Under the pieces are notes generated by a model, which worked only from the letters and a program-made list of their open reading frames with translations, made no database searches and was not told the origin of the DNA. From Cyclina sinensis (taxonomy: Eukaryota; Mollusca; Bivalvia; Venerida; Veneridae), in NCBI GenBank assembly GCA_012932295.1, contig JAAONU010000001.1:41092780-41156779 (forward strand): 64,000 nt of DNA, given 5' to 3'. The stretch's first letter is position 1. Each line of letters starts with the position of its first letter. Both the position numbers and the translations under genes were made by a program. Positions 17,765 through 52,623 of the stretch are shown here, one piece after another.

Positions 17765-17814
17765 TGTTTTGTGCGATTTGTTTTGCGTGTGTTGCGGATG
17801 GGTTGTGTGTGGGT

Positions 17815-17905
17815 TGGGTGATTGTTTGGAAAGGGGAAAATGTTTGGGGAGAAAAAGGGGGGGCTATGTGTGAAAAGACCCCCCCCCCTTTATGCGCGGG
17901 GTATT
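17815..17905. other. G-run/C-run near the left end of unit 1
   Basis: A (G)7 run near 17861-17867 is followed by a (C)10 run at about 17879-17888, able to form a hairpin. In unit 2 the C-run is longer (about 15 C, 31865-31880), a difference typical of homopolymer slippage. Confidence 0.6.
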
Positions 17906-18031
17906 TTTTGTGTTTTGTTTTGTTTGTTTTATGCTTAGTTTGCGTTGTTTATGTTAATGTGAGAAGGTGTTAGGTGATGCAACTTGTTGTAAGAAGGCGT
18001 AAGATAGTGTTAGGTATGAAAAGCCAGTGTA

Positions 18032-18045
18032 GTTGCTATGGCAAC
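18032..18045. promoter_or_regulatory. RFX-type X-box palindrome (unit 1, upstream of gene pair)
   Basis: GTTGCTATGGCAAC: two half-sites GTTGC and GGCAAC around a short centre, the classic RFX/EF-C site known from ciliary, MHC class II and viral enhancers. It lies 261 bp before the first gene of the pair and is conserved in unit 2 at 32022-32035. Confidence 0.6.
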
Positions 18046-18246
18046 GTGTAGACGTTTTTGCAGTTTGTGAATGATGGTGACAATACGACATGCGAAGGTA
18101 GGTCGTATACGCGTAGGATTTGAAGTGACATGGTGAGAAGGTTAAACAAAGATGAGTGAGTTTGGCATTTGCAGTAGTAAGAGGTAAAACGTTTTTTTTC
18201 TAATCTATGTGTTTGTGTTTGTATGGCAAGTTCCCCCTCCCCCCCC

Positions 18247-18284
18247 ACTAGAAATTTAAGTATTTAAAGAGGAAGCGCACTGCT
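18247..18284 (+). promoter_or_regulatory. Promoter of the 209-aa gene, unit 1
   Basis: 'actagaaatttaagtattta' and the following 'aagaggaagcg' are repeated almost exactly before the second gene (18999-19034) and in unit 2 (32237-32274, 32989-33024). TATTTAAAG serves as the TATA-like core about 37-45 bp upstream of the ATG. Confidence 0.6.
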
Positions 18285-18305
18285 TATGTGTGACATTCTG
18301 AGTGC

Positions 18306-18935
18306 ATGATGGAAACGCCCGTTGTTAAGAAACGTCGTATTGACGAGACCGATTGTGCTGCAACTTCTGAAGAAAGCTTGCTGTCCGAAACGAAAACAGA
18401 TGATTATACCATAAATGCGGACGAATTCGAGTCAATGGTAGACGATACGGGACTACCATGTACCTCGTCTGTTCGAGAAGGCTTCCTAGAGTATGCCGAA
18501 CGCATCTGCCACGACTATGTGTTAAACGTGGCGGTAGAGGAAAGAGACAGTGACCATTTCTCAGAGTGGTGGAACAACGAGGGAGAGAAACGATGTGAAA
18601 GCTTTCTGAAATGGGATTTGCAGAACAATTACGCTCGAAGTTATTTCGAAGATCAGTACAGTAAGAAGGATGGTGTCTTCTCCGGAAAAATGGTTGCCGA
18701 TATTCTAGTGAGAAACTACGGGAAAAGAATTCAATTTTGCGAAATCGAAGGGTGTTCCTATTCTGAATTAGGATGGGACGAGCCGTTTGAAACTAACAGA
18801 CTGTTGCGTCTGAACTCTGAGAAAGAAAAACTTCTTCTCATTTGCAATCACTGTTTGGACAATCAATTCAACACGATTCTTTTCATTCTTTGCGAAATGG
18901 CAGAAGATCTGCTGCAAAAACGAGAGCAAATTTGA
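18306..18935 (+). CDS. 209-aa protein of unknown function, first of a tandem pair (unit 1)
   Basis: Intronless ORF starting MMETPVVKKRRIDETD; KKRR at residues 8-11 resembles a nuclear localisation signal. The protein is acidic with a Ser/Glu-rich N-terminus, then a conserved core (FLEYAERIC..DY, DHFSEWWNNEG, W-D), two Cys pairs (FCEIEGC and CNHC) and a C-terminal helix. No family is recognised. The neighbour at 19073-19606 is a shorter paralogue with the same promoter and the same start, so the pair arose by duplication. AATAAA is at 18944-18949, only 8 bases after the stop, giving a very compact transcription unit. Against its unit 2 counterpart (32296-32925) I count 8 amino-acid-changing and 3 silent differences, no frameshift. 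Compact intronless genes with private promoters suggest an element or virus-derived gene rather than a typical host gene. Confidence 0.7.
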   Translation: MMETPVVKKRRIDETDCAATSEESLLSETKTDDYTINADEFESMVDDTGLPCTSSVREGFLEYAERICHDYVLNVAVEERDSDHFSEWWNNEGEKRCESFLKWDLQNNYARSYFEDQYSKKDGVFSGKMVADILVRNYGKRIQFCEIEGCSYSELGWDEPFETNRLLRLNSEKEKLLLICNHCLDNQFNTILFILCEMAEDLLQKREQI

Positions 18936-18998
18936 CGTACTTCAATAAAACAACGAAACTCATACTTTTATTTTATTGGGAAGCCCTTCCCCCGACAC

Positions 18999-19034
18999 AC
19001 TAGAAATTTAAGTATTTAAAGAGAAAGCGTACTG
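18999..19034 (+). promoter_or_regulatory. Promoter of the 177-aa gene, unit 1
   Basis: Same TAGAAATTTAAGTATTTAAAG core as before the first gene, 39 bp after which comes 'gagtgcATGATGG', also shared. The downstream gene therefore has its own promoter rather than being read from the first. Confidence 0.6.
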
Positions 19035-19072
19035 CTAAATGGTCACATTCTTTCATCAGTATATCTGAGTGC

Positions 19073-19606
19073 ATGATGGAAACGTCTGTTGTTAAGAAAC
19101 ATCGTATTGACGAGACCGATCGTTCAACTTCTGAAGAAAGCTTGCTGTCTGAAACGAAAACAAATGATTATACCATAGATACGGACGAATTCGAGTCAAT
19201 AGTAGGCGATACGGGACTACCATGTACCTCGTCTGTTCGAAAAGGTTTCCTAGAGTATGCCGAACGCATCTGCGACGATTATGTGTTAAACGTGGCGGAA
19301 GAGGAAAGAAACATTGACCATTTCTCAGAGTGGTGGAACAACGAGGGAAAGGAAAGATGTAAAAGCGTGCTAAACTGGCATATGCGGCACGTCTACCGTA
19401 ACCAAGGATGTAAAAGCTTGGTGAACTGGGATAGGCGGCAAGGATGGGACGAGCCACTTGAAGCGAACAGGCTGTTATGCCTCAACTCAAAGGAAGAAAT
19501 CCTTCTCCTTTGCAGTCACTGTTTGGACAATAAACTTGACGGGATTCTTTGTACTCTTTGCGATATGGCAAAACGGTTGTTGTTAAACCTATACTTAATG
19601 CAATAA
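19073..19606 (+). CDS. 177-aa paralogue of the 209-aa protein (unit 1)
   Basis: Starts MMETSVVKKHRIDETD and follows the 209-aa protein through the FLEYAERIC and DHFSEWWNNEG blocks. It then lacks the middle region and instead has a short internal duplication (RCKSVLNW and GCKSLVNW, residues about 100-128) before rejoining at GWDEPLEANRL and the C-terminal CSHCLDNKLD block. The AATAAA signal (19602-19607) overlaps the TAA stop codon. Against unit 2 (33063-33596) I count 8 differences, all of them amino-acid-changing. No function is recognised. The minus-strand frame 19092-19457 is a shadow of this gene. Confidence 0.68.
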   Translation: MMETSVVKKHRIDETDRSTSEESLLSETKTNDYTIDTDEFESIVGDTGLPCTSSVRKGFLEYAERICDDYVLNVAEEERNIDHFSEWWNNEGKERCKSVLNWHMRHVYRNQGCKSLVNWDRRQGWDEPLEANRLLCLNSKEEILLLCSHCLDNKLDGILCTLCDMAKRLLLNLYLMQ

Positions 19607-19744
19607 AAAAACAATGAAACGCATACTTTGTTTTTTTATCGTCTTTGATTCCGAAGTTGTCAGCAGCACATCTTTAAGATGTAATTTCACATTGTATTAG
19701 CAAGGCACAAAGTCCTTAGCAAAGTTTCATGTTCTTGATTCATG

Positions 19745-19758
19745 GTTGCCATGGTAAC
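19745..19758. promoter_or_regulatory. RFX-type X-box palindrome (unit 1, downstream of gene pair)
   Basis: GTTGCCATGGTAAC fits the X-box consensus GTNRCC(N)RGYAAC. It lies 139 bp after the second gene; the conserved copy in unit 2 is 33734-33747. With 18032-18045 it brackets the gene pair. Confidence 0.6.
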
Positions 19759-20554
19759 GTTAAGAGACTTGATCGAACATTGCCTTAACAAACTATAGTT
19801 GCTTTGTTTAACACTCTTTGGTCAAATACTTTAACAAAGAACTGATTTGATTTTTGCTCAGTTTGATACACCAGCAGTCTCAAAGTTTGAACAGATATCA
19901 AGCTGCTAACAAGTATTACAAAATGTATGGCCGGTCTTATTAACTGTGTTTCCGAACAGTAAAAAAGTCATAACATGATGATGGATGATAACATTATCCA
20001 TTGTCAATATTCTACAACATTAACCTATCGCGACAGTTTACCAATGACAAAACAGTTTACAGTCTCACAAAGAGTCAAGTGTTCAGTTTCTGTTAAGTGC
20101 GCACGAATACCAGCAGTCTCAACAGTCTCTAAATTTGAATTACATTGATAGTCAAAGACGCTTACACTTCTTTGCTGAATTTCTGAACAGACAGTCATAA
20201 CATGTCCATGCAGTCTCGGATTTTTGCAAACTGGTCATTGTCAAGTTTCGAAAATGTGTACTTCTACATACAGGTAAGGTACAGTCTCGATACACTGAAT
20301 TTACAGAGACACAGAGACGATGCAATGTAAATTTTATCGCACTAGCAGTCTTGCCCAGTCTCTGTCTCAATGTTTGACCAGAGTGAACATGTTGCTTACA
20401 GAAACAGATTGTCATAACATTACAGCGCATTTGACGAAGCTTATTCTCAGATGTGCAAAACGTCAGTAGTGAAAATCCTGTCTTTTAAGTTAGCTGACAC
20501 CATGCATTGTACGCTTTACTCTCGTGTTGTCGTTCACTGTAACAGTCATCTTAT
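19759..20554. other. Non-coding, rich in 'cagtctc' words (unit 1)
   Basis: No supported ORF. 'cagtctc' or 'acagtct' occurs many times (for example near 20060, 20110, 20211, 20281). The unit 2 equivalent 33748-34630 has an extra ~100 bp at about 33790-33893. Confidence 0.45.
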
Positions 20555-20925
20555 CATAACCAACCGTCTTGGTATGTTACATAAACAATTTCGGCAGCAT
20601 AGTGACAAGTCTGCCAGACTGAACTAGTGAAGTTATCATTCGTACAAATCGCCGCAAGTCAAAAACCAAGCATTTTTACTTTAACATTAGAGACGGTTAA
20701 GTACGTCTCCCAAAGAGTCATTACAAACCTTCTCATTGCTCTGCAGAAACAATGACGTTAGCACGATGACAAGTTTGCCATACTAGACTTGTGAAAATGT
20801 ATGTACCCCATTTCGTTGTTATCTGCACAAATCGCCGCAAGTCAAAAACCAAGCATTTTTACTTTAACATAAGAAACGGTTAAGTTAGACCGTCTCGATA
20901 AGTAACAAATCATGCAAAACACTGA
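20555..20925. repeat. Diverged ~190-bp tandem repeats with GAGACGG hairpins (unit 1)
   Basis: Units share 'atgacaagtttgccagactg', 'aaatcgccgcaagtcaaaaa' and 'ccaagcatttttactttaac'. Each ends in an inverted repeat, GAGACG/CGTCTC, around 'ttaagt'. Further, more diverged units occur at about 21000-21095 and 22905-23100, and in unit 2 at 34630-35000 and 35285-35480. There is no coding potential; they could be regulatory or replication-associated iterated sequences. Confidence 0.65.
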
Positions 20926-21943
20926 ATTGCTGAATAGTTAAACCTTATACAGCGTAAACCGTACGTTGTCGTTTACTTGTTTTTTTTTTTCTCAACGACT
21001 GTTTCGCACAGTCTCGGTATAGCAAACCTTCTTGGTATGTTACATAAACAAATTCGGCAGCACAGTGACAAGTGTGCCAAACTGAATTGCTTCACTCTTG
21101 TAAATATGAGAAACCGATTTTCTGCTCCCACTTTGGACAGACTTGCAACTGTTTGCGATTGTTTTCAATCACAAGTGTGGTTATAAAATCGGTTTTCAAA
21201 ACAGGTTGCCTTTCCCAAAAGAAAAAACAAACAACAAGAGGCTGTCTCTATACAGCAAAAGCTTAAGTTTTTGTGCTGAACCGGTGTTTAACGAGAAGCG
21301 TATCGCCTCACGCAACTCGAAGAACATGCTCCGGATCATCTGGCAGTGCCTTACAGCACGTACCATCACCATTCCTTGAATGGGCAAGGAAAACCATGCG
21401 TTGGATGCAACATTCTTCGCTCTGGTCAGGGGGACAGGAAGAGTTTAGGCGACAGGAGTTGCATTCCTGCCATACTAATCCTCGCCCTACAGAGTTACTC
21501 GCTGCATGGTGGAGCGAACTACACACACAACTCAGCACAAAGGCAACCTGGCAGACACAGTTTTTGTTTGATTTTGATTTGAGAATTAAAGAGAAGCAAA
21601 CTGAATTGTTCATGTTTCGTCTTTGTTAGCCCGTCTCAGAAAAACAAGAACCGATGTTCACAATTTCACCTACCTTTCAGGAAACAATCTGGAACAAGTG
21701 AAACATCAGTTCTCGCTTTTTACACTGTCATTGAATACAGTCTTACACCAAGTGAATCGGTGTGTGAGAGAGACAAGCTACTCTGTTAAACATGAACCAG
21801 TTTGCTACTGAGAAGTGATTTTTGTCATGCATTGACTTTCCACATCAGCAATAACAAAGAAACAAAATGCATGCATGCAAACGAAGCAACAAGAGTGGAA
21901 ATTCAATGCATTGACAAACAAAAACCATTTCCCAGTTTTGTTT

Positions 21944-22026
21944 TCGTTAATAAAAGAAAGAGCATGATGTGTTTGACATGATGGTAAATTTCAACCATCA
22001 TGTTTTTCAACCATCATGTTTTTTTG
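21944..22026. promoter_or_regulatory. CATCATG/CATGATG inverted repeats, module 1
   Basis: Alternating CATGATG and CATCATG heptamers (21963-22022) can form hairpins; an AATAAA precedes them. Equivalent blocks lie at about 23726-23766 and 36088-36126. Role unknown; they could be a transcript-end structure or a protein-binding array. Confidence 0.45.
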
Positions 22027-22194
22027 CATAGTGAAATTTAGTATTCGTATATCTCTCCTTTTGCACAGGCAGACATCGGAAGCCAAACAGACTCAAAAGC
22101 TCTAACATCAGTATTGCCAAACCAGCTCCAGCCCACTGCCCAATCGCAATCTGTTTACCCAGCAGATTGGTCAATCTGACACTCTTATGGCACA

Positions 22195-22392
22195 CTATAC
22201 AACGATAGAGGTAACGCGCGTGGTCCCAGACGGAGCATTGTGGATTGGAACTGTTTTAGACAAATCACAGCAGTTGACAGACAAACTAATTACACCATGT
22301 TCGCCCAAGTGCCAACGAGACATGGTGACGAGCCGTACGGCCACATTAACGGTTTGCCTGCGCTGATGCCAGAGTCGAATGGAGAGAGACAT
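22195..22392 (-). CDS. Possible 65-aa ORF downstream of a TATA promoter
   Basis: The first ATG downstream (minus strand) of the TATA box at 22505-22515 opens a 65-codon frame. In the two related modules (24.1 kb and 36.5 kb) codon 8 is TAG instead of TGG, so only this copy is open. No family is recognised. Because plus-strand frames over the same DNA are also open, coding is uncertain. Confidence 0.22.
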   Translation of the reverse strand: MSLSIRLWHQRRQTVNVAVRLVTMSRWHLGEHGVISLSVNCCDLSKTVPIHNAPSGTTRVTSIVV

Positions 22393-22504
22393 ACGTCCCA
22401 AAGCCAAAATTACGAAAGTACCCCACCCAAATTTGAGAGAATTTTCGACAGCGAGTCTCGTCTGAAAGTTCAGAAGAGACTGAGGAGTGCGGGCTTGAGC
22501 AGCT

Positions 22505-22574
22505 GCTTTTATAAGCGTTCAACACGTTACTGCTCGCTGATTGGTCCATTTTAATAAGAATTGTCTCAGCCAAT
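22505..22574 (-). promoter_or_regulatory. CCAAT/TATA promoter reading leftward, module 1
   Basis: On the minus strand: an inverted CCAAT (ATTGG as read; CCAAT on plus, 22570-22574), a direct CCAAT (22540-22544), then CTTATAAAAGC (22505-22515). The order and spacing are those of a TATA-containing polymerase II promoter. The same arrangement occurs in the two related modules. Confidence 0.55.
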
Positions 22575-23309
22575 CAGATTCATTCTAATTTGGCCTTCGA
22601 GGAGACCAGACGCGATTTCGCATCGCTCTGACCAACTCAAAACTGTTTCGATGTGAGAACGAACTTGAGTAGTCGATGCATTGTTAAGTTTGTCATAACA
22701 GACGTCTTGATAGTCTCTTAGTTTTCAAGAAAGCAAAAAATGCCTATACACTTGTTAACTGTGCTTCTGAACGAACAATGTTTCATTACATAAGGATGTG
22801 TTAACCAAGCTTATACTAAGTTGTGCAAATCGCCCATAGTCGAAATCCTAAAATGCATACCTTAAGAGACAGTTATGACGGTTAACAGAGAATGTAAAAA
22901 CCTGTACCTCGTTCACTGATACTCTGTGCATGCGACGATTGCGTCTCACTAAGAGTCACAACAGCCTTCTTATTGGAATGCGTAAACAATGTCTTTAGCA
23001 TGATGGCAAGTTTGCCAGACCGAACTAGTGCATCTGTATGCACAACTTGTGACGAGTCAAAATCCAAGAATATATACTTATCGTGACAGTTTAGAGTTTT
23101 GAAAAAACCGTCTCGATAGGTTTCAGTGTGCAGTCATGTCTCGATAAAAATGTACTTCGAGGCTGTTACATGATGCTCCAAGTTTGAACAGAGACATCAT
23201 GTTGCCATTAAGGAATACTAATCTTTGGTACAGTTATACCATCAGTACCTTTCACAGACAAGTTTGCCCAAATCTTGTGAGTGACAACCGAATTTCCGCT
23301 CGTATTGTT

Positions 23310-23375
23310 AACAGGCTTGCGACTGTTTGCGACTAGTTTCGGTCGCAAGCATACTTAAAAATTCGGTCGTCTGTC
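23310..23375 (+). promoter_or_regulatory. Upstream element of the 82-aa ORF
   Basis: 'ggcttgcgactgtttgcgac' followed by GCGAC/GTCGC hairpin arms and 'catacttaaaaattcgg', a weak TATA-like core. The diverged counterpart in module 1 (21138-21195) has a better TATAAAA at about 21182. Unit 2 repeats it at 35680-35740. Confidence 0.35.
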
Positions 23376-23467
23376 ACAGAGATTCGAGACAGTCGAGAAA
23401 GATCGTTTGCTCTCAATGTTATACAATGACAATTTTGGTTTAAATTTACTATGAGTAACGTGTTTCC

Positions 23468-23716
23468 ATGGCCCAGACCAGCTCGGGAATGACGGCGAAA
23501 CTGTCTAGCGCACACCTAATTACGCGAGTACCAAGGCCAAACCCCTCTACAGTGTACGTTAGTGGCATAGATGGAAACACGTATCATCGTGGTGAACGGG
23601 TAGCGGTTCCCTTGGCATTCTATTCACCACCGATTTCGAATACCAAGAGCTCGTCCGTACGAACTGGCTCCATACCACCCGTCGCTCAGAATTTATTAAC
23701 AGCCAAAAGGAAATGA
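23468..23716 (+). CDS. 82-aa Ser/Pro-rich protein, unknown (unit 1)
   Basis: ATG in a good context (tttccATGg) opens an 82-codon frame, MAQTSSGMTAKLSSAHLI and onward, with a VPRPNPSTVYVSGIDGNTYH centre and a KRK end. It has no membrane segment and no known motif. The copy in unit 2 (35828-36076) is full length and differs by one amino acid change (Ile to Thr) and two silent changes in what I compared. That conservation supports coding modestly. A possible splice acceptor (ttttgcacag, about 23812-23821) follows, so a second exon cannot be excluded. Confidence 0.45.
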   Translation: MAQTSSGMTAKLSSAHLITRVPRPNPSTVYVSGIDGNTYHRGERVAVPLAFYSPPISNTKSSSVRTGSIPPVAQNLLTAKRK

Positions 23717-24256
23717 GAGCAGAGCATCATGTTTTGGACATGATGGCAAAATTTCAACCATCATGTCGCAAGAGAGATTCCAGTACAAGTTTTAGTATTC
23801 ATACGTCTCTCCTTTTGCACAGGCAGACATCGGAAGCGAAACAGACTCAAAAGCTCTAGCATCAGTATTGCCAAACCAGTTCCAGCCCACTGCCCAATCG
23901 CAATCTGTTTACCCAGCAGATTGGTCAATCTGAGACTCTAATTGCACACTATACAACGATAGAGGTAAAGCGCGTGGCCCCAGACGGAGCATTGTGGATT
24001 GAAACTGTTTTAAACAAATCACAGCAGTTGACAGGCAAACCAATTGCACCATGTTCGCCCAAATGCCAACGAGACATGGTGGCGAGCCGTACGGCCACAT
24101 TAACAATTTGCCTGCGCTGATGCTAGAGTCGAACGGAGAGAGACATACGTCCCAAAGCCAAAATTACGAAAGTACCCACCTAATTTTGAGAGAATTTGGA
24201 CAGCGAGTCTCCTCTGAAAGTTCAGACGAGACTGAGGAGTGCGGGCTTGTGCGGCT

Positions 24257-24327
24257 GCTTTTATAAGGTTTCTTGGTCTTGCAGATCGCTGATTGGTCCA
24301 TTTTAATAAACAATGTTTTCAACCAAT
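24257..24327 (-). promoter_or_regulatory. CCAAT/TATA promoter reading leftward, module 2
   Basis: CTTATAAAAGC at 24257-24267 with CCAAT boxes at 24292-24296 (minus strand) and 24323-24327 (plus strand). Same layout as 22505-22574. Confidence 0.55.
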
Positions 24328-24506
24328 CAGATTCAGTCTAGCCAGACCATCGAGGAGAGCAGATGTGATTTCACATCGCTCTGTCATGTTGTCACTGGTA
24401 GACAACTGTAAATATAGAACGGTTTCGACGCTGTGCAATGAAGACAACCACGATTGTAATAGAGTGGTACAAACTAAGTACCACAGCACCACACTTTATA
24501 TTATAA

Positions 24507-24548
24507 GTATAGCCGTCGTTTTTAAGACTCCTTAGACAACGATTGTAC
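24507..24548. repeat. Conserved hairpin just before the Rep-like gene
   Basis: Arms 'gtatagccgtcgtt' and 'acaacgattgtac' around a ~16-nt loop, ending 18 nt before the ATG at 24566. Better paired copies are at 25192-25233, 25403-25443 and 37034-37075. This copy has partner changes in both arms. Confidence 0.6.
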
Positions 24549-24565
24549 CACACTTTGCTGTAACT

Positions 24566-25156
24566 ATGGGAAGAAACAAGACTTGGTATTGCTATGTCTG
24601 TCAACACGAGATGAGAAACGACACCAAAATGAGGCACCTCAACAGTAAGAAACACCATGCGAAGACTGAACTAAAGGAGACCTGGCGCTGTATACTTGAT
24701 GAGAATAACCCTCTTAAGATGAAACTGATACGAACATCTACAGAACAGAAGCCAAACAAACCTAAACGGAATGAAGTGTACCAAAGTAGGAGAGGTTCAA
24801 CACAGTTTGCATGTACATTTAACTCAACAAGGAAATACCAGTTTGCGAAGCACGCTAGGAAACAAGACTGGATACAGTCGTATGTCTTTGCAAATGAATA
24901 CGGAGAAGATAAGAACTACAAACATCCACAAAGCCGTGCTTATATACAAACCAAAAACAGAATGAAGTTTGACATGTTTCAACAGCACTTTGAAAGGACA
25001 TTTCATTTTAGAGTAGATGATCTGAAACAGTGTAAGAACAAATCCTGGTTGCGATACATTACAAAGAAAGACTACAGACCAGTGTACTCTGGTATAGATT
25101 GTCAGCAACTACATCCAAATGTCAGGAGCTACATTCTAGACCATTATTTAACATGA
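24566..25156 (+). CDS. Zinc finger plus Rep-like (HUH endonuclease) protein, 196 aa
   Basis: Residues 9-30 form a C2H2 finger of the U1/matrin spacing (C9, C12, H24, H30; HLNSKKH at the end). Residues about 80-175 carry three motifs in the order and spacing of rolling-circle Rep proteins: CTFNST (83-88) in place of motif I FTLNN; EYGEDKNYKHPQSRAYIQ (111-128) with an HxQ motif II at H120-Q122 preceded by the usual E-x-G; and YITK (164-167), an exact YxxK motif III with the presumed nucleophile Tyr164. A short tail follows (HPNVRSY at 183-189). If correct, it would nick and rejoin single-stranded DNA at a hairpin origin. It lacks the helicase domain of CRESS-virus and Helitron proteins and is shorter than either. 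The start is set by a downstream-of-hairpin ATG conserved in unit 2 (37240). Assignment rests on motif reading alone; the zinc finger is clearer than the Rep domain. Confidence 0.58.
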   Translation: MGRNKTWYCYVCQHEMRNDTKMRHLNSKKHHAKTELKETWRCILDENNPLKMKLIRTSTEQKPNKPKRNEVYQSRRGSTQFACTFNSTRKYQFAKHARKQDWIQSYVFANEYGEDKNYKHPQSRAYIQTKNRMKFDMFQQHFERTFHFRVDDLKQCKNKSWLRYITKKDYRPVYSGIDCQQLHPNVRSYILDHYLT

Positions 25157-25191
25157 AGTACACGAAAACACAGTACCACAATAAAGTAAAT

Positions 25192-25233
25192 GTATAGCCG
25201 TCGTCTTAAAGACTTTTTTAACAACGGCTGTAC
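25192..25233. repeat. Conserved 14-bp-stem hairpin
   Basis: GTATAGCCGTCGTC-type left arm and AACAACGGCTGTAC-type right arm, one or two mismatches. It stands 36 nt after the Rep-like stop codon and precedes a decayed zinc-finger copy. Confidence 0.65.
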
Positions 25234-25239
25234 CACACT

Positions 25240-25400
25240 CTGCTATACATCGTGGATAATGGCTGTACCACACTCTGCTATACAACAGAAGGAAAGACAT
25301 AATATTGTTCTGTCTGTTAAAATGAGATGAGGCTAGACAATTAAATGAAACACCTCGTCAGTAAGAATCAACCGATACTGCAGTACCACAGATATACAAC
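25240..25400 (+). pseudogene. Decayed copy of the zinc-finger start of the Rep-like gene
   Basis: 'gaaggaaagacataatattg' then 'ttctgtctgtt' and 'aaatgaaacacctcgtcagt' align with the first 90 bases of 24566-25156 (GRNKTWYC to HLNSKK), but with frameshifts and stops. A weaker trace of the same start occurs at 25570-25600. Confidence 0.5.
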
Positions 25401-25402
25401 AT

Positions 25403-25443
25403 GTATAGCCGTCGTCTCAAAGACTTCTTGACAACGGCTGTAC
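25403..25443. repeat. Conserved 14-bp-stem hairpin
   Basis: GTATAGCCGTCGTC and GACAACGGCTGTAC, paired with a single mismatch and one wobble. It is followed by three diverged 'gctgtaccacattctgcttt' repeats up to about 25560. Confidence 0.65.
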
Positions 25444-25672
25444 CACACTCTGCTTTACATCGTGGACAATGGCTGTACCACATTCTGCTTTACAGCAAAG
25501 ACAACGGTGGTACCACATTCTGCTGTACAATATGGACAACGACTGTACTACGCTCTGCTTTACAACATGTGAAGGAACAAGACAAGATATAGCTCTCTCT
25601 CTTTCAACTGTCATGAATATTGTTCAGTGTTAAAGTAGTTGGACAGACAGTTATGCGACCGACCAGTCAATC

Positions 25673-25760
25673 TGATTTTTTAGTATTTGTATAAAATCGA
25701 GGAATGCTCAACACGTTTGCCAGCTTCGATGCTGGCGAGAACATGTCATGACTAATCTTA
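25673..25760 (+). repeat. TAGTATTTG + hairpin module, unit 1 copy a
   Basis: 'gattttttagtatttgtata' is followed by a perfect 6-bp stem hairpin GCCAGC-ttcgat-GCTGGC (25719-25736) and then 'gcgagaacatgtcatgacta'. Related modules: 25999-26064, 38155-38235, 38624-38700, 38973-39050 and 39306-39363. Confidence 0.65.
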
Positions 25761-25998
25761 ATTGTTCACTGTTACTACCTGGGACACGACGAGCACTGTA
25801 CTTCAATCATGACCACATACAGATTGCGACCAGAGCGAGTCATCATCTGGAAGCAACATCGTGTGGTGGTGACCGAAGTGCAGAGCTCTTATCAGTATCT
25901 CGTGACAGTGTATCATGTTTGATCGACCAAGTGTTTTGAACATCTTGCTTTTCTGCTAACAGGACTAATGAATCAACTTGGGTGGGTGGTAAACTGAT

Positions 25999-26064: not shown

Positions 26065-26070
26065 ACGTTG

Positions 26071-32274: not shown

Positions 32275-32295
32275 TATGTGTGACATTCTGAGTGC

Positions 32296-39363: not shown

Positions 39364-39369
39364 ACGTTG

Positions 39370-43899: not shown

Positions 43900-44820
43900 T
43901 GTACCAAACCGGGTTTTTTTTGTATGACCTCCACAATGACGACAAAACTCAGTCTGGTCAATTCTCTTCATTTATTTACCAATAGATTTATACACGACAT
44001 TTAACTGTAGTACATGACAGACATCCATGTGACTGTAAAGGTATGTCACATGTGGAAAAAACCGGGAAACGGTCTGAAAATATAAAACGACAAAAATGCC
44101 TCTTACAAATAAAATAATAACTTACACAGTATGTAATCTGCAAAACATACCAAAAAACCTTGTTACACTTATTACGCTCGTTATATTCACTAACGGGGCG
44201 ACAAACTATATAAACTCCTACAAAAGTCTGTTTAACAAAACGCATGTACAAAATACAACCTGAATTATGTTATTCCCCATGAATTGCTTCAAACAATTAT
44301 GAATATATATAAAATTATGTACAAAACTGTCCAGGATTCAACATATCAGTATAAGTAAACAATACTCACAGAACATAAGGTGTTCAAACCAGTCCACACA
44401 ATTCTCACACTGTCGTGCCAAAGCTGCCAGAGCTGTGCTGTTAACTAGCTGTTGAATAAAGGTTAAAACAGTGCAACAAATAAGTCATGCAATATGAAAC
44501 CGACCCAAAATGTTGGCATATAATCCAATTCGAAAACCGACAGAAATACGATAAACGCGAAGATGACAACCCGAAATAATCACAACGAGCTAAACTAGAA
44601 ACATCTCTTATTCTATTCCACTAATCTTTTAAATCTTAACTTACTTACATTAGAAAGATTACTCAGATAAAGATTCCCAACCTTCCTCTCCAAAATCTAA
44701 CTGAAGAAAGCGGAATTCAAAGGGAATTAACTCTGCACAACACCTTCCGTCATAAAAAACCACTACCTTACCGTATCGGCAAAATACCAACCATACTATT
44801 ACAAACTACGACCTGCTACA
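43900..44820 (-). repeat. 3' LTR, 921 bp
   Basis: In element orientation it starts TGTAGCAGG and ends GGTACA. A TATATAG box lies near 44203 and an AATAAA near 43975 (both minus strand), giving plausible U3, R and U5. Small ORFs inside (43988-44251) are duplicated in the other LTR and are not genes. Confidence 0.92.
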
Positions 44821-44836
44821 TTCTCCCCCCTTTTCT
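44821..44836 (-). promoter_or_regulatory. Polypurine tract
   Basis: On the minus strand AGAAAAGGGGGGAGAA directly abuts the 3' LTR, as needed to prime plus-strand DNA synthesis. Confidence 0.85.
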
Positions 44837-45235
44837 AAAAGTCGTCTCGACTGCTACTGAATCACAGTGTCTATATAACATGGACATAAATATTCAATGA
44901 TATAAAAACATAATAAAAAAAATTTTCCAACATATTTCCAACCTGCAAAACAAAAGTTATTGAGCTTCTGAAAAAAAAATTCAAAAAAAAATTTATCTAA
45001 CACATGCAATAGTGAATAATGCACATAACTAAACAATTATCAACCTTCCTCCCCCTTCTGAAAGAAGAATATTTGTGACTATTGAAGTAATTTGAATATG
45101 CTAAACAAATGATAAAAACAAGTCATTATAAAACCAATATAGCATGAAATAAACATCGTTATTAATGCATTTACGTAAAAGCTTTGAACAATTCTGTCAT
45201 AATGCGATTATTCTCAAGCTGCATTAGCATTAATG
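44837..45235. other. Non-coding remnant between pol stop and PPT
   Basis: Very AT-rich with several A- and T-runs. No integrase-like frame can be read, which locates the loss of the integrase core to this interval. Confidence 0.6.
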
Positions 45236-48181
45236 TTAAAGTATTACTGTTAGGAAATCTGTACTGACAATTTCGAGAGGATATGATGATTTTATATTTA
45301 TCAAAGGACTAGTGTTATTCCTTGTCTGTTTACCTCTCAAACACCTAGGACAGTTCTCAACCCAACTATTTACCTCTGCTAGATAACCTGGCCAGTAAAA
45401 TCTTTCTCGAATCAAAGACGCTGTTCTTTCCTTTCCTGGGTGTCCTATATCTCCGTGTAGTCCATGTAACACCTGCTTTCTGTAAAGTTCTGGTAAAACT
45501 AATTGACTTACCTCTTCTTCATTGTCTTTTAATACTCTGTACAGCAATCCTCTTTTGACTGTAAACTGATCAAAATGTCTTGACATAGTTAAGTGATTTC
45601 TGTTACTTACAAACTGAGATTTACTTGGAAAAGTCTTATCAATCACTGCTCTGAGCCATAGCCCAATTATTGGATCATTTCTTTGGTTTCTCCTCAATTC
45701 ACGCAACTCTATTTGTGGCAAAGTTTGACCTGGTGTGTCTATAAAATCTAGGACATTCACCGACCGACATGGCAGCATATCAATACAAGGCGCTGCATAA
45801 ATTGTATTACAAATGGCATGGACAATTTCACTGTCTATTTTACTTGAAGCTGTTTTGCTCTTAGACATCAGTTGTTCTTGTACTCTATTAAATGGATACC
45901 TTGATAAAGAGTCTGCATCTACATTTGTTTTACCTGGTCTATATATTATATCGAAATCATAATCACTAAGGGACGCTACCCAACGTTGACCTGTTGCATC
46001 TAATTTTGCTGTACTTAAAACATGTGTCAAGGGATTGTTGTCTGTAAATACAATGAACTTACCTGATATCAGATAGTCACTGAACTTTTCAGTTATGGCC
46101 CATTTTAGAGCTAAGAACTCCAATTTAAAGGTAGAATAATTCTTTTCAGCCTTTGTCAAACCACGACTTGCATAAGCGATTACTATGAGAGTACCATCAT
46201 CTTGTTTTTGATTCAGTACCGCACCTAAACCTTGTGTACTGGCATCAGTGTGCAACTCAAAAGGCTTATCAAATTGTGGATATGCTAGTACTGGTGAGGA
46301 TGTTAACAAAGATTTAATTTTCTGGAAAGTATCTTGCTGTTCTTTTTCCCATTTCCACTCTTTACTTTGATGTTTCTTTCCCTTCTTTAAACTAGTTGGT
46401 GGTAGCAAATCAGACAAGGGTTTAGTAATCTTACTGAAATCCTTAATGAATTTTCTGTAGTAACCTGCAAGGGCTAAAAATGATCTTAATTCCTCTGCAT
46501 TTGTAGGGATTGGGTAGTTATTAATTTTTTCACATTTTTCAGGGTCTGTTTCTAAACCATCTTCTCCTACAATATGTCCCAAAAATTTTACCTTTTTTTG
46601 AACGAAAGTACACTTTTCCGGTGACAGTTTCAATCCGCATTCTTTCAGTCTTGTCAACACCTTGTCAAGTCTTTCCAAGTGCTCCTGAAATGAAGAACTG
46701 AAAATTATGAGATCATCAAGAAAAATGAAACATATGCTCATGTGGTAGTCTCCCAAACATTCCTGCATGATTCTTTGATATTCTGATGGTGAATTTGTGA
46801 GACCAAATGGGAGCTTATTATGCTCATAAAAACCCAAGGGACCTAAAGTAAATGCAGTATACTTTTTGTGACTTTCCTCAAGTTCTACTTGGTGGTAGCC
46901 CGATTTCATATCAAGTGTAGTGAACCACCTAGCTCCATGTAACCTATCAAAAATGTCCTCTGGCCTGGGTAATGCGTGTGAGTCTCTAACTGTTCGAAGG
47001 TTCAACCTCCTATAATCTATGCACATTCTCAACTTCCCATTTTTTCGACGACATAAAACCACTGCCGACGCCCAGGGAGATTTTGATTTCCTAATTACAC
47101 CACTTACCAATAAGTCTTCAACATGTTTTCTTACCTCCTCAATCATGCCTGGTGGGATCCGTCTGTATTTTTCCTTAAATGGCACTGTATTGGTCAACTC
47201 TATCCTGTGCTTAGAAACAGTACACTTACCTATATCTGTATCGTTCTTGGAAAAAATGTTCTCATGTGTATGTAACAGATCCATCAACTCACCATACTGC
47301 TCTTGTGAAAGATTACTTTCAATTTTCACTTTACTCAATACATCATTTGTCTTCAACTCAGGTTCCATTTCTTCTGACAAAAAACTTTCAACTTCTACTG
47401 GCTGCAACTCAGCAATAATTGCTTTTGGTGAAATATTTACAGAGTTTGTACTCAAATTGGACAGCGTCACTTCTACAAGTTGCTTACCTTGGCTATTGTA
47501 TTGTATTACCCCTGGTCCTATGTCTATGAATCCTGGCAGTAAAGAGCTGTCTGTTTCACATATTAATGCTGAAGTTGGTATGTGACCAATCTCATTGTCT
47601 GTGAAACATTTTACTTTTACAGATTGGTTTGGAGTGACAGTTATTCTTCTACTTTCTGCGTTCCTTAGAATGGCCAACCTGTAATTATTTTTCTTTAATT
47701 CTTTTTCTCTAACTGACATGCATCTAAATGCCAAATACCATGGAGAGTGCAATTTAGCTTTCTGTAAAAATTGTTTGCCATGAATTTCACTACAAGCATC
47801 CATGAAATGTTGTAAAACATTAGTTCCCAACAAAACTGGTGTGTTACTATTGAAATTTGTGTTTGGAACTACCAATAGTAAACATGTTTGTTCATGAGCA
47901 TCTACAATTCCTATAGGTAAAATATTGACCTCAATAAAACCTAAGTAGGGCAATTCACTGCCATCGGCACACTCAACTTTGAGTAGATTCTTAAGAGGTT
48001 TCAATTCTATATCAGAAAAGTAATCATGGTAGAACTGTTCAGAGCAGGTTGAAACACACGATCCAGTATCTAACAGAGATTTTACTTCTTTGCCATTAAT
48101 ATTGATCATAGTTTCATTGACTTCACCTACTAATAATGGATCAGATTTATTCTGTGTGGCTGTACCTACATCCTGACCCAT
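45236..48181 (-). CDS. pol: Pol polyprotein (protease, RT, RNase H, truncated integrase)
   Basis: 981 residues from the first in-frame Met; frameshift products would start 6-8 codons earlier. Seen in order: retropepsin LLDTGS (active D38-T-G-S41); reverse transcriptase about 330-560, with LDMKSGYHQV (423-432), PFGLTNSP (459-466) and FLDD (487-490, Phe-Leu instead of the usual Tyr-x before the two Asp); RNase H about 640-760 with HTDAS (644-648), ALKWA (691-695) and FTDNNPL (712-718); integrase zinc-binding domain with H909, H914, C944 and C947. Right after it PLEIVSTDFL (968-977) holds the first Asp of the D,D-35-E core, then the frame ends in TVIL-stop. The catalytic core, normally several hundred residues, is missing. 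The plus-strand frame 47019-47585 is a shadow. Confidence 0.92.
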   Translation of the reverse strand: MGQDVGTATQNKSDPLLVGEVNETMININGKEVKSLLDTGSCVSTCSEQFYHDYFSDIELKPLKNLLKVECADGSELPYLGFIEVNILPIGIVDAHEQTCLLLVVPNTNFNSNTPVLLGTNVLQHFMDACSEIHGKQFLQKAKLHSPWYLAFRCMSVREKELKKNNYRLAILRNAESRRITVTPNQSVKVKCFTDNEIGHIPTSALICETDSSLLPGFIDIGPGVIQYNSQGKQLVEVTLSNLSTNSVNISPKAIIAELQPVEVESFLSEEMEPELKTNDVLSKVKIESNLSQEQYGELMDLLHTHENIFSKNDTDIGKCTVSKHRIELTNTVPFKEKYRRIPPGMIEEVRKHVEDLLVSGVIRKSKSPWASAVVLCRRKNGKLRMCIDYRRLNLRTVRDSHALPRPEDIFDRLHGARWFTTLDMKSGYHQVELEESHKKYTAFTLGPLGFYEHNKLPFGLTNSPSEYQRIMQECLGDYHMSICFIFLDDLIIFSSSFQEHLERLDKVLTRLKECGLKLSPEKCTFVQKKVKFLGHIVGEDGLETDPEKCEKINNYPIPTNAEELRSFLALAGYYRKFIKDFSKITKPLSDLLPPTSLKKGKKHQSKEWKWEKEQQDTFQKIKSLLTSSPVLAYPQFDKPFELHTDASTQGLGAVLNQKQDDGTLIVIAYASRGLTKAEKNYSTFKLEFLALKWAITEKFSDYLISGKFIVFTDNNPLTHVLSTAKLDATGQRWVASLSDYDFDIIYRPGKTNVDADSLSRYPFNRVQEQLMSKSKTASSKIDSEIVHAICNTIYAAPCIDMLPCRSVNVLDFIDTPGQTLPQIELRELRRNQRNDPIIGLWLRAVIDKTFPSKSQFVSNRNHLTMSRHFDQFTVKRGLLYRVLKDNEEEVSQLVLPELYRKQVLHGLHGDIGHPGKERTASLIRERFYWPGYLAEVNSWVENCPRCLRGKQTRNNTSPLINIKSSYPLEIVSTDFLTVIL

Positions 48182-48192
48182 AACATAGGCAC

Positions 48193-49260
48193 CTACTTGT
48201 TTAAAGGGCAGTCCCTAGCAAAATGGCCTAACTCATCACATTGGTAACAACGTAAATTTGCCGGTCTAAATGTTTTAGACGCAGTTGGACGTCTTTGTGA
48301 AAATGGTGCATCACCTTTACCAAAACCTCTGTATGGTCTATTATTAAACTCACCTCTGCCACGTCCCCTGAAGTGTCGTGGTCCTCTATCCCGTCTCCAA
48401 ACTTGACCTGTTGCTCCTGAACTTACTTGTTGTTGATTTTGTGTCGTATTTGTCTTGTCTTGTTCCAACTTTTCAATGACTTGGTTCATTTTTTCTAGCA
48501 AAGCATCTATCTTGGATGGTTTCACTGTTTCCTCTTTTTCTGATGTTGCGTTACAAGATGTCTTACCTTTTGGTTCCTGCTTGCCTCTGGCTTGTTGCAT
48601 CTCACTCTCTAATTTTCTAACAATAGATTTGAATTCATTGTAATCTGAAATAGTTTCATACTTAAAGCTTGTTCCTGTTTTTAGATCAAAATTTAACCCT
48701 TCGTAGAAAATGCTTTTGAGTAATGCCTGTTGTGATCTATTTACAGCTCCTAAATCAACAGCCTGTGAAAACATTTCCTCCACCCTAGCTGCAAATTTGA
48801 TGACTGACTCATCTGGTTGTTGTTCACATGCATGTAGCTTTTTTAATATAGTATGGACAGTTTCAGTGTTACCAAAGGCACTTTGAAATGTTTCTAATAT
48901 GTCACCTATTTTTGCTGTTTCACCTAGGCGCATCACCATATCTGCTGCTTCTCCACGCAATGAGCGTCTAATACCTAATAACATACTTTCATTGCTATAT
49001 GCTCGTTCACGCAATAAACAATTAACTTCATAACGCCAGGTACGATAGGAGACTTCTCCTTTACCTGTTTCACCAAAGAAAAGTGAAATTCTAGGATATT
49101 TTGTTGCTTCTTTAGTTTCTTTAACATTACTGGTAGAAGCAGATTTTTCTTTTTCTTTTTGTAAGAAATGTTCAAAGTCACTGACCGTTTCAATTTTCAT
49201 CTTTTTCAGGGCTTCCAAGAGAGTCTTAGACTCTTGACTGATATTCTCATCATCTGACAT
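48193..49260 (-). CDS. gag: Gag polyprotein
   Basis: 355 residues from the ATG whose complement is at 49258-49260 (a longer frame to 49287 would need GTG). The N-terminal half is a Gypsy-type capsid region (WRYEVNCLL and further on LLKSIFYEGL), followed by a Lys/Glu/Gln-rich linker and an Arg/Gly-rich nucleic-acid-binding stretch (FRGRGRGEF). One CCHC zinc knuckle ends the protein (C338, C341, H346, C351; CYQCDELGHFARDC). Pol follows in the -1 frame. Confidence 0.9.
   Translation of the reverse strand: MSDDENISQESKTLLEALKKMKIETVSDFEHFLQKEKEKSASTSNVKETKEATKYPRISLFFGETGKGEVSYRTWRYEVNCLLRERAYSNESMLLGIRRSLRGEAADMVMRLGETAKIGDILETFQSAFGNTETVHTILKKLHACEQQPDESVIKFAARVEEMFSQAVDLGAVNRSQQALLKSIFYEGLNFDLKTGTSFKYETISDYNEFKSIVRKLESEMQQARGKQEPKGKTSCNATSEKEETVKPSKIDALLEKMNQVIEKLEQDKTNTTQNQQQVSSGATGQVWRRDRGPRHFRGRGRGEFNNRPYRGFGKGDAPFSQRRPTASKTFRPANLRCYQCDELGHFARDCPLNK
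48199..48205 (-). promoter_or_regulatory. -1 ribosomal frameshift slippery site U-UUA-AAC
   Basis: In the gag frame the codons are ccU UUA AAC aag UAG. A -1 slip on UUUAAAC continues as caa gta ggt gcc tat gtt atg ggt, exactly the pol frame, without a stop. This is an X-XXY-YYZ heptamer placed one codon before the gag stop. A downstream stimulatory structure was not checked. Confidence 0.8.
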
Positions 49261-50526
49261 TTTTCTTTTTAAATAATTATATGTCACAAAAGTTATCTTA
49301 CCGTTGAATGGATTTCATGCAGAAAAAATAAAACATTGAAGCTAATCTCCACTGTTCCATGTGCCTCAATGAACATCACACAATCACTACTCTTTTCACA
49401 ACACTGTTTCTAATGCAAAAGAAAATTCTACAGAAAAAAAAAAAAAGTAAAATGTTAATTATGAATCGATTTAAAGAATTTATAATTCTAAAAATAATAG
49501 ATACTCTAAATCTTGCTTCCTGTGAAATCTGCAAAAGAGTTAAATAGAATTATTGGTGTAATTTATTAACAGTTTTCAATACTAAACAAAACTGTAGATC
49601 ACTGTGATTCAGTATCAGGACCTAAAACCCCCTTTTTTCTAACCTAAGGTTCTACACTATAGTACTAACTAAAGTGATGCCCTAGCCAAAGCTCAAATCA
49701 ATGTACTAATAACACTCAAATACACTGAAACGACAAGGCTAGCTGTGTCTGCACAAACCTTACTGCTGATACAATTGCCAGGAACGAAATACAAACCTGC
49801 CAACAATTTAGATCATAAGATATATGGTATGAAAGTGAAAGTTACTATTAATTCAATGTTACTTATGAAGATGACTTGTTAAACTGATTTGTTACTTATT
49901 AAGTTTAAGCAAATTGCTGTTAAAGGTTGTTAAGAGTACCCGTCACCAAGAACTTATTGATGTGTTTGTGCTTAAATTGTAAAAAGACTTCCTCACTTAC
50001 AACAAATGAATTCTCTCTCTCTTTTTTTTTTAACAATTTAAAATGTATTTATAATATAGAGAACTCTAATTAGATATTTCCCAATTTTGAAAAAAAAATT
50101 GAAGAATTTGTCTACAATAAAAATAATGAGCACACCCAAACTTAGAGGAAATTACATAAAATACACTCTAATGAGAGCTCTATTAAGTATAAAAAAAAAA
50201 AAAAAATCACCTAAACACTTATTCACTTAAAAAAAAAATGTTGTGTCCGAGGTTAAATCACCATTTCACTTTTCACAGTCATAAGTTACCATGTACTTCA
50301 CCAAGGTCATTTTACATGTGCTGCTCCAAGGATTGTTTACCATGTGCTGCTCCAAGGTCGTTTACCATGTGCTCCTCCAAGGTCGTTTACCATTTGCTTT
50401 CCAAAGGTCAAATTCCATGTGTTCTTGAGGTTAATAGATATTTTTGCTCTAATTGATGTAGAAAAAGTCTGTCCATATAAATTTTCTACTCACAGTTGTA
50501 TAAATTTTTCTCACTGAAGTTGTCTT
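49261..50526 (-). other. Long 5' leader of the retrotransposon
   Basis: About 1.27 kb between the PBS and the gag ATG, AT-rich and without a coding frame. It includes a ~25-bp tandem repeat at 50285-50430 ('accatgtgctgctccaaggt', about six diverged copies). Confidence 0.7.
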
Positions 50527-50547
50527 GATTCCTCACTGGGGGCTCCA
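50527..50547 (-). promoter_or_regulatory. tRNA primer-binding site
   Basis: One base inside the 5' LTR, the minus strand reads TGGAGCCCCCAGTGAGGA, beginning with the TGG that pairs with a tRNA CCA end. The tRNA species could not be assigned by eye. Confidence 0.75.
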
Positions 50548-50548
50548 A

Positions 50549-51469
50549 TGTACCAAACCGGGTTTTTTTTGTATGACCTCCACAATGACGACAAAACTCA
50601 GTCTGGTCAATTCTCTTCATTTATTTACCAATAGATTTATACACGACATTTAACTGTAGTACATGACAGACATCCATGTGACTGTAAAGGTATGTCACAT
50701 GTGGAAAAAACCGGGAAACGGTCTGAAAATATAAAACGACAAAAATGCCTCTTACAAATAAAATAATAACTTACACAGTATGTAATCTGCAAAACATACC
50801 AAAAAACCTTGTTACACTTATTACGCTCGTTATATTCACTAACGGGGCGACAAACTATATAAACTCCTACAAAAGTCTGTTTAACAAAACGCATGTACAA
50901 AATACAACCTGAATTATGTTATTCCCCATGAATTGCTTCAAACAATTATGAATATATATAAAATTATGTACAAAACTGTCCAGGATTCAACATATCAGTA
51001 TAAGTAAACAATACTCACAGAACATAAGGTGTTCAAACCAGTCCACACAATTCTCACACTGTCGTGCCAAAGCTGCCAGAGCTGTGCTGTTAACTAGCTG
51101 TTGAATAAAGGTTAAAACAGTGCAACAAATAAGTCATGCAATATGAAACCGACCCAAAATGTTGGCATATAATCCAATTCGAAAACCGACAGAAATACGA
51201 TAAACGCGAAGATGACAACCCGAAATAATCACAACGAGCTAAACTAGAAACATCTCTTATTCTATTCCACTAATCTTTTAAATCTTAACTTACTTACATT
51301 AGAAAGATTACTCAGATAAAGATTCCCAACCTTCCTCTCCAAAATCTAACTGAAGAAAGCGGAATTCAAAGGGAATTAACTCTGCACAACACCTTCCGTC
51401 ATAAAAAACCACTACCTTACCGTATCGGCAAAATACCAACCATACTATTACAAACTACGACCTGCTACA
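50549..51469 (-). repeat. 5' LTR, 921 bp
   Basis: Same length as, and seemingly identical to, the 3' LTR at 43900-44820. Confidence 0.92.
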
Positions 51470-52623
51470 GAACAACAGCTTTTAAAAGTCAAAACACCTT
51501 TTCCTGGATTAACGAAATTAAATCTGTACAACCATTATAACGAGATTTCACTAAAACCCGCTGCAAAACACATCCATTTCAACAAAACAACATGCCCATG
51601 CCCTGACTCGTTTCGTTAAAAAATAGGCATGTTGTCACTAACATCACTAATGTCAGTTTTCCCAAAACGCTTCGATGCTAGCGATTTCAAAGTTCTCAAA
51701 TAACGCCCAAAGAAAACAATCTACGCTGATAATCATGCTCTTATTCATTCAAATTCAACATATTTCAATGATTTCCACTCATCTCAATACTTCAAATCAA
51801 GTCAAAACGTATCAAACATTGTCAAAATCGTTATCGCTATGAAATTCCTCAGAAAAATCGCGAAATCACAACACAACAAAATTTCTCTTACCTTACTCGC
51901 CGAAATCATCCATTCCATCCTAAAATATCACTTCGCTATCCGTAATCAAACACTTCCACACTTTTTAAACACAACTATCACTCCTAGTTCCTTCGTTTTC
52001 CATCATATTCCAGCCCAAATCTAACCCAACGCCCTTCGTTCGATCGTTCGGCCGTTTTCATTTTCAAATTCAAACGACTCGCGTGACTCTGACGTCACTT
52101 GACCTTTCGGGTCAGCAACGTTCGATTTGTAATTTCTCGGAAGAGAAGACAAAAAATGACACTTTTTAATCAATCGTATAACGCACTTCTATCATATCTA
52201 CCCCTATCTGTCATACATCATTTTAAAGCGTATTTTGTCTACTTTCTTTCTCGAAAACAAGTTCTCACATTAATTCGCTCTTGTAAGAAATATCGCTGAT
52301 TTCTACACACTCGTTTTCAATGTTTAAAAATTAACATTTTCACTCGATTTCACTAATTTCTCTGCAACAAACAAAGCATATCGTTCATACTTGATCTCAT
52401 ATTCAAGCCATATCTATATCCTAATGAAATATGCCAAACAGTTCATTAAATCTAGCATCATCACTCAAAAACGACCGAAAAACGCACCCCACTCACACAT
52501 TTTCCTATCATTTCTTTCCATTCTCTCCGCTCTCTTCTCTTTTTTTTTTAACCCTTTTTTCACCCTTCTACCTTCACAAAACTCGTCCAGGACCAAACAC
52601 GCACACACCCAATTTAAAACTCG
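51470..52623. other. Right end of unit 2 after the retrotransposon
   Basis: Continues unit 2 from the base after the TSD; matches 30597-31750 of unit 1 almost perfectly, including the CRE (52090-52097). The final ~60 bp carry four or so substitutions relative to unit 1. Plus strand very poor in G. Confidence 0.6.

Follow-up and report, generated by a model that had tools for sequence, protein, structure and literature searches.

A stretch of 64,000 nucleotides from the genome of the venerid bivalve Cyclina sinensis (contig JAAONU010000001.1, positions 41,092,780 to 41,156,779; below, 'the window', with positions counted from its first letter) contains two related units of about 14 kb arranged head to tail, unit 1 at 17765-31750 and unit 2 at 31751-52623, both taken on the plus strand and delimited by self-BLAST and alignment. 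Tentatively, and with slightly less than even confidence, the pair can be seen as a discrete 14-kb insertion of unclassified type that possesses ends of its own and is now an exact head-to-tail dimer; as to geometry, an insertion with intrinsic ends in the form of a tandem dimer appears to be the best-supported description. Three times in the pair a promoter-like array is followed by a covarying candidate for a self-cleaving twister ribozyme, and from this comes the testable idea that twister self-cleavage makes some animal transcript 3′ ends. Should the unit prove mobile as well, it would represent a large element belonging to none of the superfamilies with which it is compared here.

The first base of unit 2 directly abuts the last base of unit 1 (31750/31751), and in self-comparison the unit 1 segments 17765-19815, 19810-20922, 22643-24392, 25651-30600 and 30596-31752 align to unit 2. 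Read directly, TGAAAA stands just outside the pair on the left (17759-17764) and again on the right (52624-52629), and is missing from the inner junction. An earlier interpretation made from the letters alone (the sequence-only reading) had pointed to both the seamless abutment and the outer-only repeat, and it was right to the base. Its unit length of some 14 kb suits unit 1, at 13986 bp, as it stands; unit 2 has 20873 bp and is long only through a 7570-bp long terminal repeat (LTR) element inserted in it, without which it would come to 13303 bp. TGAAAA is a candidate target-site duplication. With random flank cut points (two million trials) an abutting direct repeat of at least 6 bp arises by chance at a frequency of 6.8e-4, rising to 2.0e-3 when 2 bp of boundary slack is allowed, the slack being real as the TG at 52624-52625 also fits the start of a unit.

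Composition changes at the same places. In a change-point fit the borders fall at 17765 on the left and 52623 on the right (95% sets 17703-17787 and 52601-52826); with wider windows they fall at 17741 and 52623. GC skew is +0.61 in the first 250 bp at the left end and, on the plus strand, -0.67 at the right end, such that at both ends C is scarce on the strand whose 5′ to 3′ direction leads inward; at the left end of unit 1 the C-depleted, G/T-rich part of the plus strand occupies 17765-18214. In an uncentred GC-skew scan of the whole window the junction at 31750 is the strongest step and the outer ends rank fourth and fifth, with the second and third steps, at 9353 and 9998, both outside the units. 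A duplication with chance-placed ends would not be expected to lie on composition borders, and since the outer repeat is improbable and composition shifts at both ends, an element with ends of its own is favoured over an arbitrary host duplication. APOBEC-like deamination was considered for the C-depleted ends and is unsupported, TC being low at the left (3 seen, ratio 0.2) and not at the right (0.96).

The identity between the units is a mosaic. Over the left 2 kb the two diverge by about 1.5-2%, an additional module of 1.7 kb (20922-22643) is present in unit 1, and 24370-25660 of unit 1 is largely unrelated to 36731-38960 of unit 2 except for the coding part of a zinc-finger gene and short repeats. 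In alignment, by contrast, the 5.47-kb stretch 26242-31711 (5470 bp) is without one substitution, the LTR insertion of unit 2 being the sole difference between the units there, and the final 40 bp of the unit then differ at four positions. The units therefore do not have a single simple shared history; at least one further variant, together with recent homogenisation of the right half, would account for the pattern. The identical 5.47 kb might also bring to mind an artefact of assembly in which allelic copies were placed side by side, an explanation that is very improbable in view of the precise junction at intrinsic ends, the outer repeat, left parts only 98% alike and an LTR element present in one copy.

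That LTR element (43900-51469, minus strand, 7570 bp) is young and foreign to the unit, its 921-bp LTRs being 100% identical and flanked by a GAAC duplication. Its gag and pol have Pfam matches (PNMA-like gag, RVT_1, RNase H and H2C2), from which we take it to be of Gypsy type. The pol open reading frame (ORF) contains the H2C2 domain and not the integrase core, and there are 415 bp between its end and the LTR; in the frame scanned, that of the pol ORF, the integrase thus seems to be largely missing.

The ribozyme candidates are all on the minus strand, two in unit 1 and one in unit 2. Those of unit 1, all three being of the type-P1 twister class, are u1a at 21119-21187 (41.5 bits, E 9.9e-7), for which cleavage is predicted between 21183 and 21182, and u1b at 23293-23361 (51.2 bits, E 1.6e-9; predicted cut between 23357 and 23356). 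The counterpart in unit 2, u2b, is at 35662-35730 (51.2 bits; predicted cut between 35726 and 35725) and is identical to u1b, from which u1a differs. An Rfam scan of 36.5 kb returned u1b and u2b, each with 51.2 bits and E 9e-9, and overlooked u1a, which was found only by a 6-kb scan. Rfam scanning of 33800-39100 in unit 2 gave no twister besides u2b, and none was found in either flank, though scans that large can miss weak ones.

The type-P1 twister is described, in the excerpted text of PMC5408937, as having essential stems P1, P2 and P4, an optional P3, a U-A cleavage site and two pseudoknots, L4-L1 and L4-L2; the predicted motifs appear to have the three essential stems, the U-A site and both pseudoknots. 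The family model, RF03160, aligned end to end, and P1, P2, P3 and P4 as well as both pseudoknots form in both sequence versions. Of 31 pairs named after the RF03160 structure, in which P1 and P3 were lengthened by eye, all form in u1b and 30 in u1a, the broken one being pair 14-76 of P1. Eight of the 31 are changed on both sides and still pair (one in each pseudoknot and three of the four in P2), and two more are changed on one side with pairing kept. Column shuffles of the 3′ letters between the two rows reached eight two-sided changes in 4 of 500 trials, and versions of the structure slid out of register had at most one two-sided change, with 32-37% of cells paired against 98.4% in the true structure.

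Is there anything to suggest that these motifs sit in transcripts? On the minus strand the sequence TTATAAAAGC occurs three times in the 64 kb, each time 24-25 bp after a CCAAT that is itself preceded by ATTGG. These promoter-like arrays, all consensus matches on the minus strand, are at 22505-22574 (module a), 24257-24327 (module b) and 36619-36688 (the module of unit 2); each shares its strand with a twister that follows 0.9-1.3 kb downstream, and at the spacings searched there is no other such site on either strand of the 64 kb. In alignments started at the TATA box the three modules are 91-97% identical over the first 500 columns, while over the next 400 the u1a module is only about 50% like the other two, that is unrelated, and those two are 98% alike; a twister nonetheless closes every one of the three. 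With such a middle between an alike head and the twister, head and ribozyme have been kept and the middle exchanged in one module. The arrangement suggests short transcripts of about 0.9-1.3 kb with 3′ ends made by self-cleavage. In all three modules a 42-codon minus-strand ORF (MSRWHLGEHG...) follows CACCATG, at 22323, 24077 and 36437; no coding claim is made for it.

The right third of the unit has a different character. In unit 1, 26417-30500 has 18 CpG against 121.5 expected, and 28501-30000 has none against 42.8 expected, as is likewise so for 41800-43299 in unit 2; the lowest count per 1500 bp in the flanks is 14. TpG plus CpA are in excess in the right third, and at 30750-31749 the CpG ratio climbs to 1.3-2.0. 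Splice donors scoring at least 8/9 in 25600-31760 number four on the minus strand and none on the plus. The CpG-depleted stretch would be the body of a predicted leftward, spliced non-coding gene on the minus strand, of which the predicted 5′ part (30153-31750, minus strand) is CpG-rich and strongly skewed, ends at the unit boundary and has candidate donors at 31018, 30473, 30277 and 30153. A transcribed body that has long been methylated and runs leftward from an unmethylated promoter at the right end has this pattern, both methylation and splicing being deduced from base composition and consensus sites. A coding role for the spliced gene was rejected, the exon chains tried having many stops in all three frames.

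Several points weigh against an insertion with ends and ribozyme-tipped genes of its own. At p of about 0.002 the repeat may be coincidence, the junction would also fit a plain tandem duplication with 2-bp TG microhomology, and the change-point windows were centred on the known unit ends so that the fit was not blind. Terminal inverted or direct repeats are not present, similarity between the unit ends being at the level of chance and of shuffles, and no transposase was recognised in the unit ORFs scanned against Pfam. Host loci typically combine a CpG-depleted gene with a CpG-rich promoter; promoter and splice sites were called by consensus matching only, and splice acceptor-like sites are without strand bias (13 minus, 11 plus). 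As for the twisters, scores of 51.2 and 41.5 are below the RF03160 gathering score of 67.2, and a whole-window scan at that threshold lists 0; the case for them thus rests on covariation, for which the evidence appears strong but thin, there being just two distinct sequences.

Much of this would be at home in a plain tandem segmental duplication of a host locus consisting of the non-coding gene and its small neighbours, with TGAAAA a coincidence and the junction formed by template switching at TG. Such an origin, rather unlikely though to be taken seriously, agrees with the 2 bp of microhomology, with gene-body-like CpG depletion beside a promoter-like CpG-rich end and with the lack of terminal repeats and of any transposase match in the ORFs scanned, and conversion between tandem copies would account for the identical 5.47 kb. 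What it has to accommodate is that both breakpoints must have hit abrupt composition borders and a matching 6-bp repeat as well.

The left half of the unit is of another kind again, with small intronless ORFs on the plus strand. In unit 1 these are A1 (18306-18935, 209 aa), which has a TATA-like GTATTTAAAG upstream and AATAAA downstream, and its paralogue B1 (19073-19606, 177 aa); aligned with them in unit 2 are A2 (32296-32925, 209 aa, 96% identical to A1) and B2 (33063-33596, 177 aa). The N-terminal half is what the paralogues A and B conserve. Between them the ratio of non-synonymous to synonymous substitution rates (dN/dS) is about 0.6 by NG86 and 0.8-0.9 by YN00, and between units dN is 0.016 and 0.019 and dS 0.024 and 0 for A and B; because of these figures, constraint on them is weak or recent. 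Neither A nor B reaches the cut-off of a Pfam family, a search of the protein collection with A1 (B was not used alone) gave 62 candidates and, none being at E 0.1, no relative, the A/B alignment gave 44 stretches among viral contigs with none confirmed, and the AlphaFold model of the 209-aa A, with a predicted local distance difference test (pLDDT) score of 46.3, is too poor for a fold search. Ten additional ORFs of the unit were compared with Pfam, the best match being a Tc3-type helix-turn-helix at E 0.017 and 15.6 bits against a cut-off of 27.2, which is taken as chance. The compact intronless genes of the sequence-only reading thus suit the left half and do not extend to the right third with its minus-strand splice donors.

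Compact intronless genes with TATA-like and AATAAA signals, small genes in duplicate, an exact dimer and a skew reversal at the joined ends that resembles a replication origin are what might be looked for in an unknown DNA virus, or an episome derived from one, that replicated by rolling circle or as concatemers and integrated in tandem. This origin is nevertheless quite unlikely. Outside the LTR element the longest ORF of a unit has only 209 aa, among the ORFs scanned, which did not include smaller ones or spliced genes, none has a viral family match that exceeds the cut-off, and no relative was confirmed among the viral contigs searched, just as the junction and end sequences have none in the viral and prokaryote contigs searched. 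The CpG-depleted third with its splice donors, moreover, points to long germline residence and counts against a recent virus.

A zinc-finger gene is shared by both units. In unit 1 it is a 196-aa ORF (24566-25156, plus strand) with a zinc-finger-like N-terminus (CxxC...HxxxxxH) and a weakly Rep-like C-terminus, and in unit 2 an ORF of 106 aa from its ATG (37240-37560, plus strand) without the Rep-like half, so that the zinc finger/Rep-like gene once ascribed to each unit survives as a zinc finger in both, with a Rep-like part in unit 1 only. Between units the zinc-finger part (56 codons) has dN 0.12 and dS 0.56, giving dN/dS of about 0.21, and is under constraint. The unit 2 version has a sub-threshold Pfam match to the KIN17 zinc finger (E 0.002) and weak PHROGs matches (best E 0.01); against viral contigs it gave three stretches, none confirmed. 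The sole protein relative found is P0001, a 111-aa zinc-finger variant from a 1346-bp contig, which matches the version of unit 2 and is a third version of the gene. Region 36731-38960 of unit 2 holds many short decayed pieces of the gene and of the hairpin upstream of it, and gives the appearance of a cassette repeatedly duplicated and broken. The reiterated hairpins noted from the letters alone are real: among four of the GTATAGCCGTCGT...ACGGCTGTAC type that were folded, three have z from -3.2 to -5.9 and the fourth -1.9. A further cassette, TTTTTAGTATTTGTA followed by a hairpin of the type GCCAGC-TTCGAT-GCTGGC, is present in five copies at 38143-39095 and 25663-26110, and is perhaps a small RNA gene family.

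Could the 196-aa protein drive a rolling-circle element with an HUH-type Rep, akin to Replitrons, Helitrons or CRESS viruses? Its CTFN, HPQ and YITK, at 83, 120 and 164, are in the order of Rep motifs I-III, which have a characteristic spacing and for which HxQ is a variant of motif II, and in 50000 shuffles of the whole protein a strict version of the motif pattern arose in 40 and a loose one in 221. The three-motif pattern was, however, drawn post hoc and fits loosely, and HPQ departs from HUH as the motif is defined in the excerpted text of PMC6668415. In Pfam the ORF or its C-terminal half meets just OrsD and the Rad50 hook (E 0.07-0.09, below cut-off), in NCBIfam nothing, while PHROGs offers one unknown family (E 0.056), PDB unrelated chains (E 0.34 and 0.41) and the phage records no Rep. 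In the protein collection the Rep-like half has no match and the whole ORF finds the zinc-finger relative only; there is thus no Rep homologue or relevant profile match in any of these five libraries (Pfam, PHROGs, NCBIfam, PDB and the protein collection). The single-sequence AlphaFold model (pLDDT 41.6) is uninformative, all that unit 2 has of the Rep-like domain is a scrap of 13 residues, no helicase matched in the unit ORFs scanned, and terminal direct repeats are lacking. A Rep-driven element is accordingly a very doubtful proposition, and of the sequence-only reading's integrated tandem dimer of a new element it is the geometry with intrinsic ends that holds, at the tentative level given at the outset, while its link to Rep, HUH proteins and Replitrons is left unsupported.

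Candidate CRESS Reps drawn from viral contigs were also discarded. A first motif pattern gave seven loci, five of them with the motif in an ORF of at least 50 aa and none a Rep by eye, and phmmer matched the 196-aa protein to none of the 333 ORFs of those seven loci; a second pattern gave 14 loci, two with the motif in an ORF and neither a Rep by eye.

How does the unit stand beside described mobile elements? With Replitrons, which are HUH transposons, it has in common a short candidate target duplication (TGAAAA is within their 2-8 bp by length) and a small protein with Rep-like motifs, but Replitrons are 0.9-4 kb long against 14 kb, have terminal direct repeats of 5-11 bp where the ends here compare at chance level, and have a Rep domain that is only motif-like here. 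Polintons, or Mavericks, make 6-bp target duplications and belong to the 14-kb size class, in both of which respects the unit resembles them; they have terminal inverted repeats, whereas the similarity of the ends here equals that of shuffles, and no integrase, protein-primed polymerase or capsid was matched in Pfam by the unit ORFs scanned, the absence of Polinton proteins and terminal inverted repeats having already been remarked from the letters. Helitrons carry a Rep-helicase gene, for which no helicase match was found in the unit ORFs scanned, though such a gene could act in trans, and according to the excerpted text of PMC10741241 they insert between A and T without target duplication, in contrast to the 6-bp direct repeat at the ends here. 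The unit lacks at least one tested feature of each of the three.

Self-cleaving ribozymes are scattered in animal genomes, the role of most being unclear. They have been linked to mobile elements, and RTE retrotransposons with truncated 5′ twisters are mentioned as work in preparation, both in the excerpted text of PMC7761336. The RTE case is alike in having a twister inside a retrotransposon; here the motif is full-length, no reverse transcriptase was found in the unit outside the LTR insert, and the predicted transcript is short, with the ribozyme at its distal end. The twisters here resemble RF03160 in aligning to the full model with all stems and pseudoknots formed, and differ in their sub-gathering scores, in the one broken P1 pair of u1a and in sitting downstream of a promoter-like array within a 14-kb unit.

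Metazoan retrozymes are, in the excerpted texts of PMC7761336 and PMC7229834, sources of circular RNAs from tandem ribozyme repeats and are proposed to return as multimeric cDNA. Like them, the unit has tandem ribozyme-bearing repeats, and in unit 1 the predicted cuts of u1a and u1b are 2174 nt apart on the same strand, so a giant version may be imagined in which tandem twisters cut a minus-strand RNA of unit or module length, and this RNA, once circularised, is reverse-transcribed and returns to the genome in multimeric form. This is scarcely probable. Described animal retrozymes are of some 150-450 bp in those excerpts, the unit here being roughly 30-90 times longer, and have hammerheads, while the present unit has twisters, protein genes and an exact dimer with defined ends. 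Same-strand tandem motifs flanking a repeat are predicted in unit 1 only, unit 2 having a single ribozyme; introns are apparently retained, and the phase of the two units is unrelated to the ribozymes. Among the literature matches listed, as far as their titles and abstract openings go, no such unit or twister-ended animal gene is described.

For the insertion with intrinsic ends, the following course of events may be envisaged. On insertion the unit would have duplicated 6 bp of its target. As no transposase was recognised, it was most likely mobilised by a trans-acting enzyme that makes duplications of this length; its residence in the germline would have been long. From its right end a spliced, methylated non-coding RNA would be transcribed inward, the left half would yield small intronless mRNAs, and short minus-strand transcripts would begin at the CCAAT/TATA arrays, with self-cleavage by the twister replacing polyadenylation in forming their 3′ end. 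The dimer would most likely derive from an end-joined circle or a concatemer that either integrated in one piece or joined a resident copy by recombination; the mosaic would then have been generated by exchange with other variants and a recent conversion of the right half, with the LTR element arriving last. More speculatively, and unlikely in its entirety, this may be an animal mobile element that moves as an end-joined circle whose joined ends serve as a bidirectional promoter or replication origin, and that is equipped with a hypervariable zinc-finger cassette and short twister-ended genes.

The flanks have features of their own. On the left is a tandem pair of TMEM151-family genes (1997-3047 and 6768-7817) with 76% identical DNA, the first split over two frames and the second with a Pfam match at E 6.4e-12, and beyond them the block 9353-9998, outside the units, has a strong GC-skew step on either side. 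An ORF at 56441-56845 resembles, by its motif, a decayed fragment of the reverse transcriptase of a long interspersed nuclear element, and satellite-like arrays with units of 25 bp and 52 bp are present at 4248-5780 and 63265-63998.

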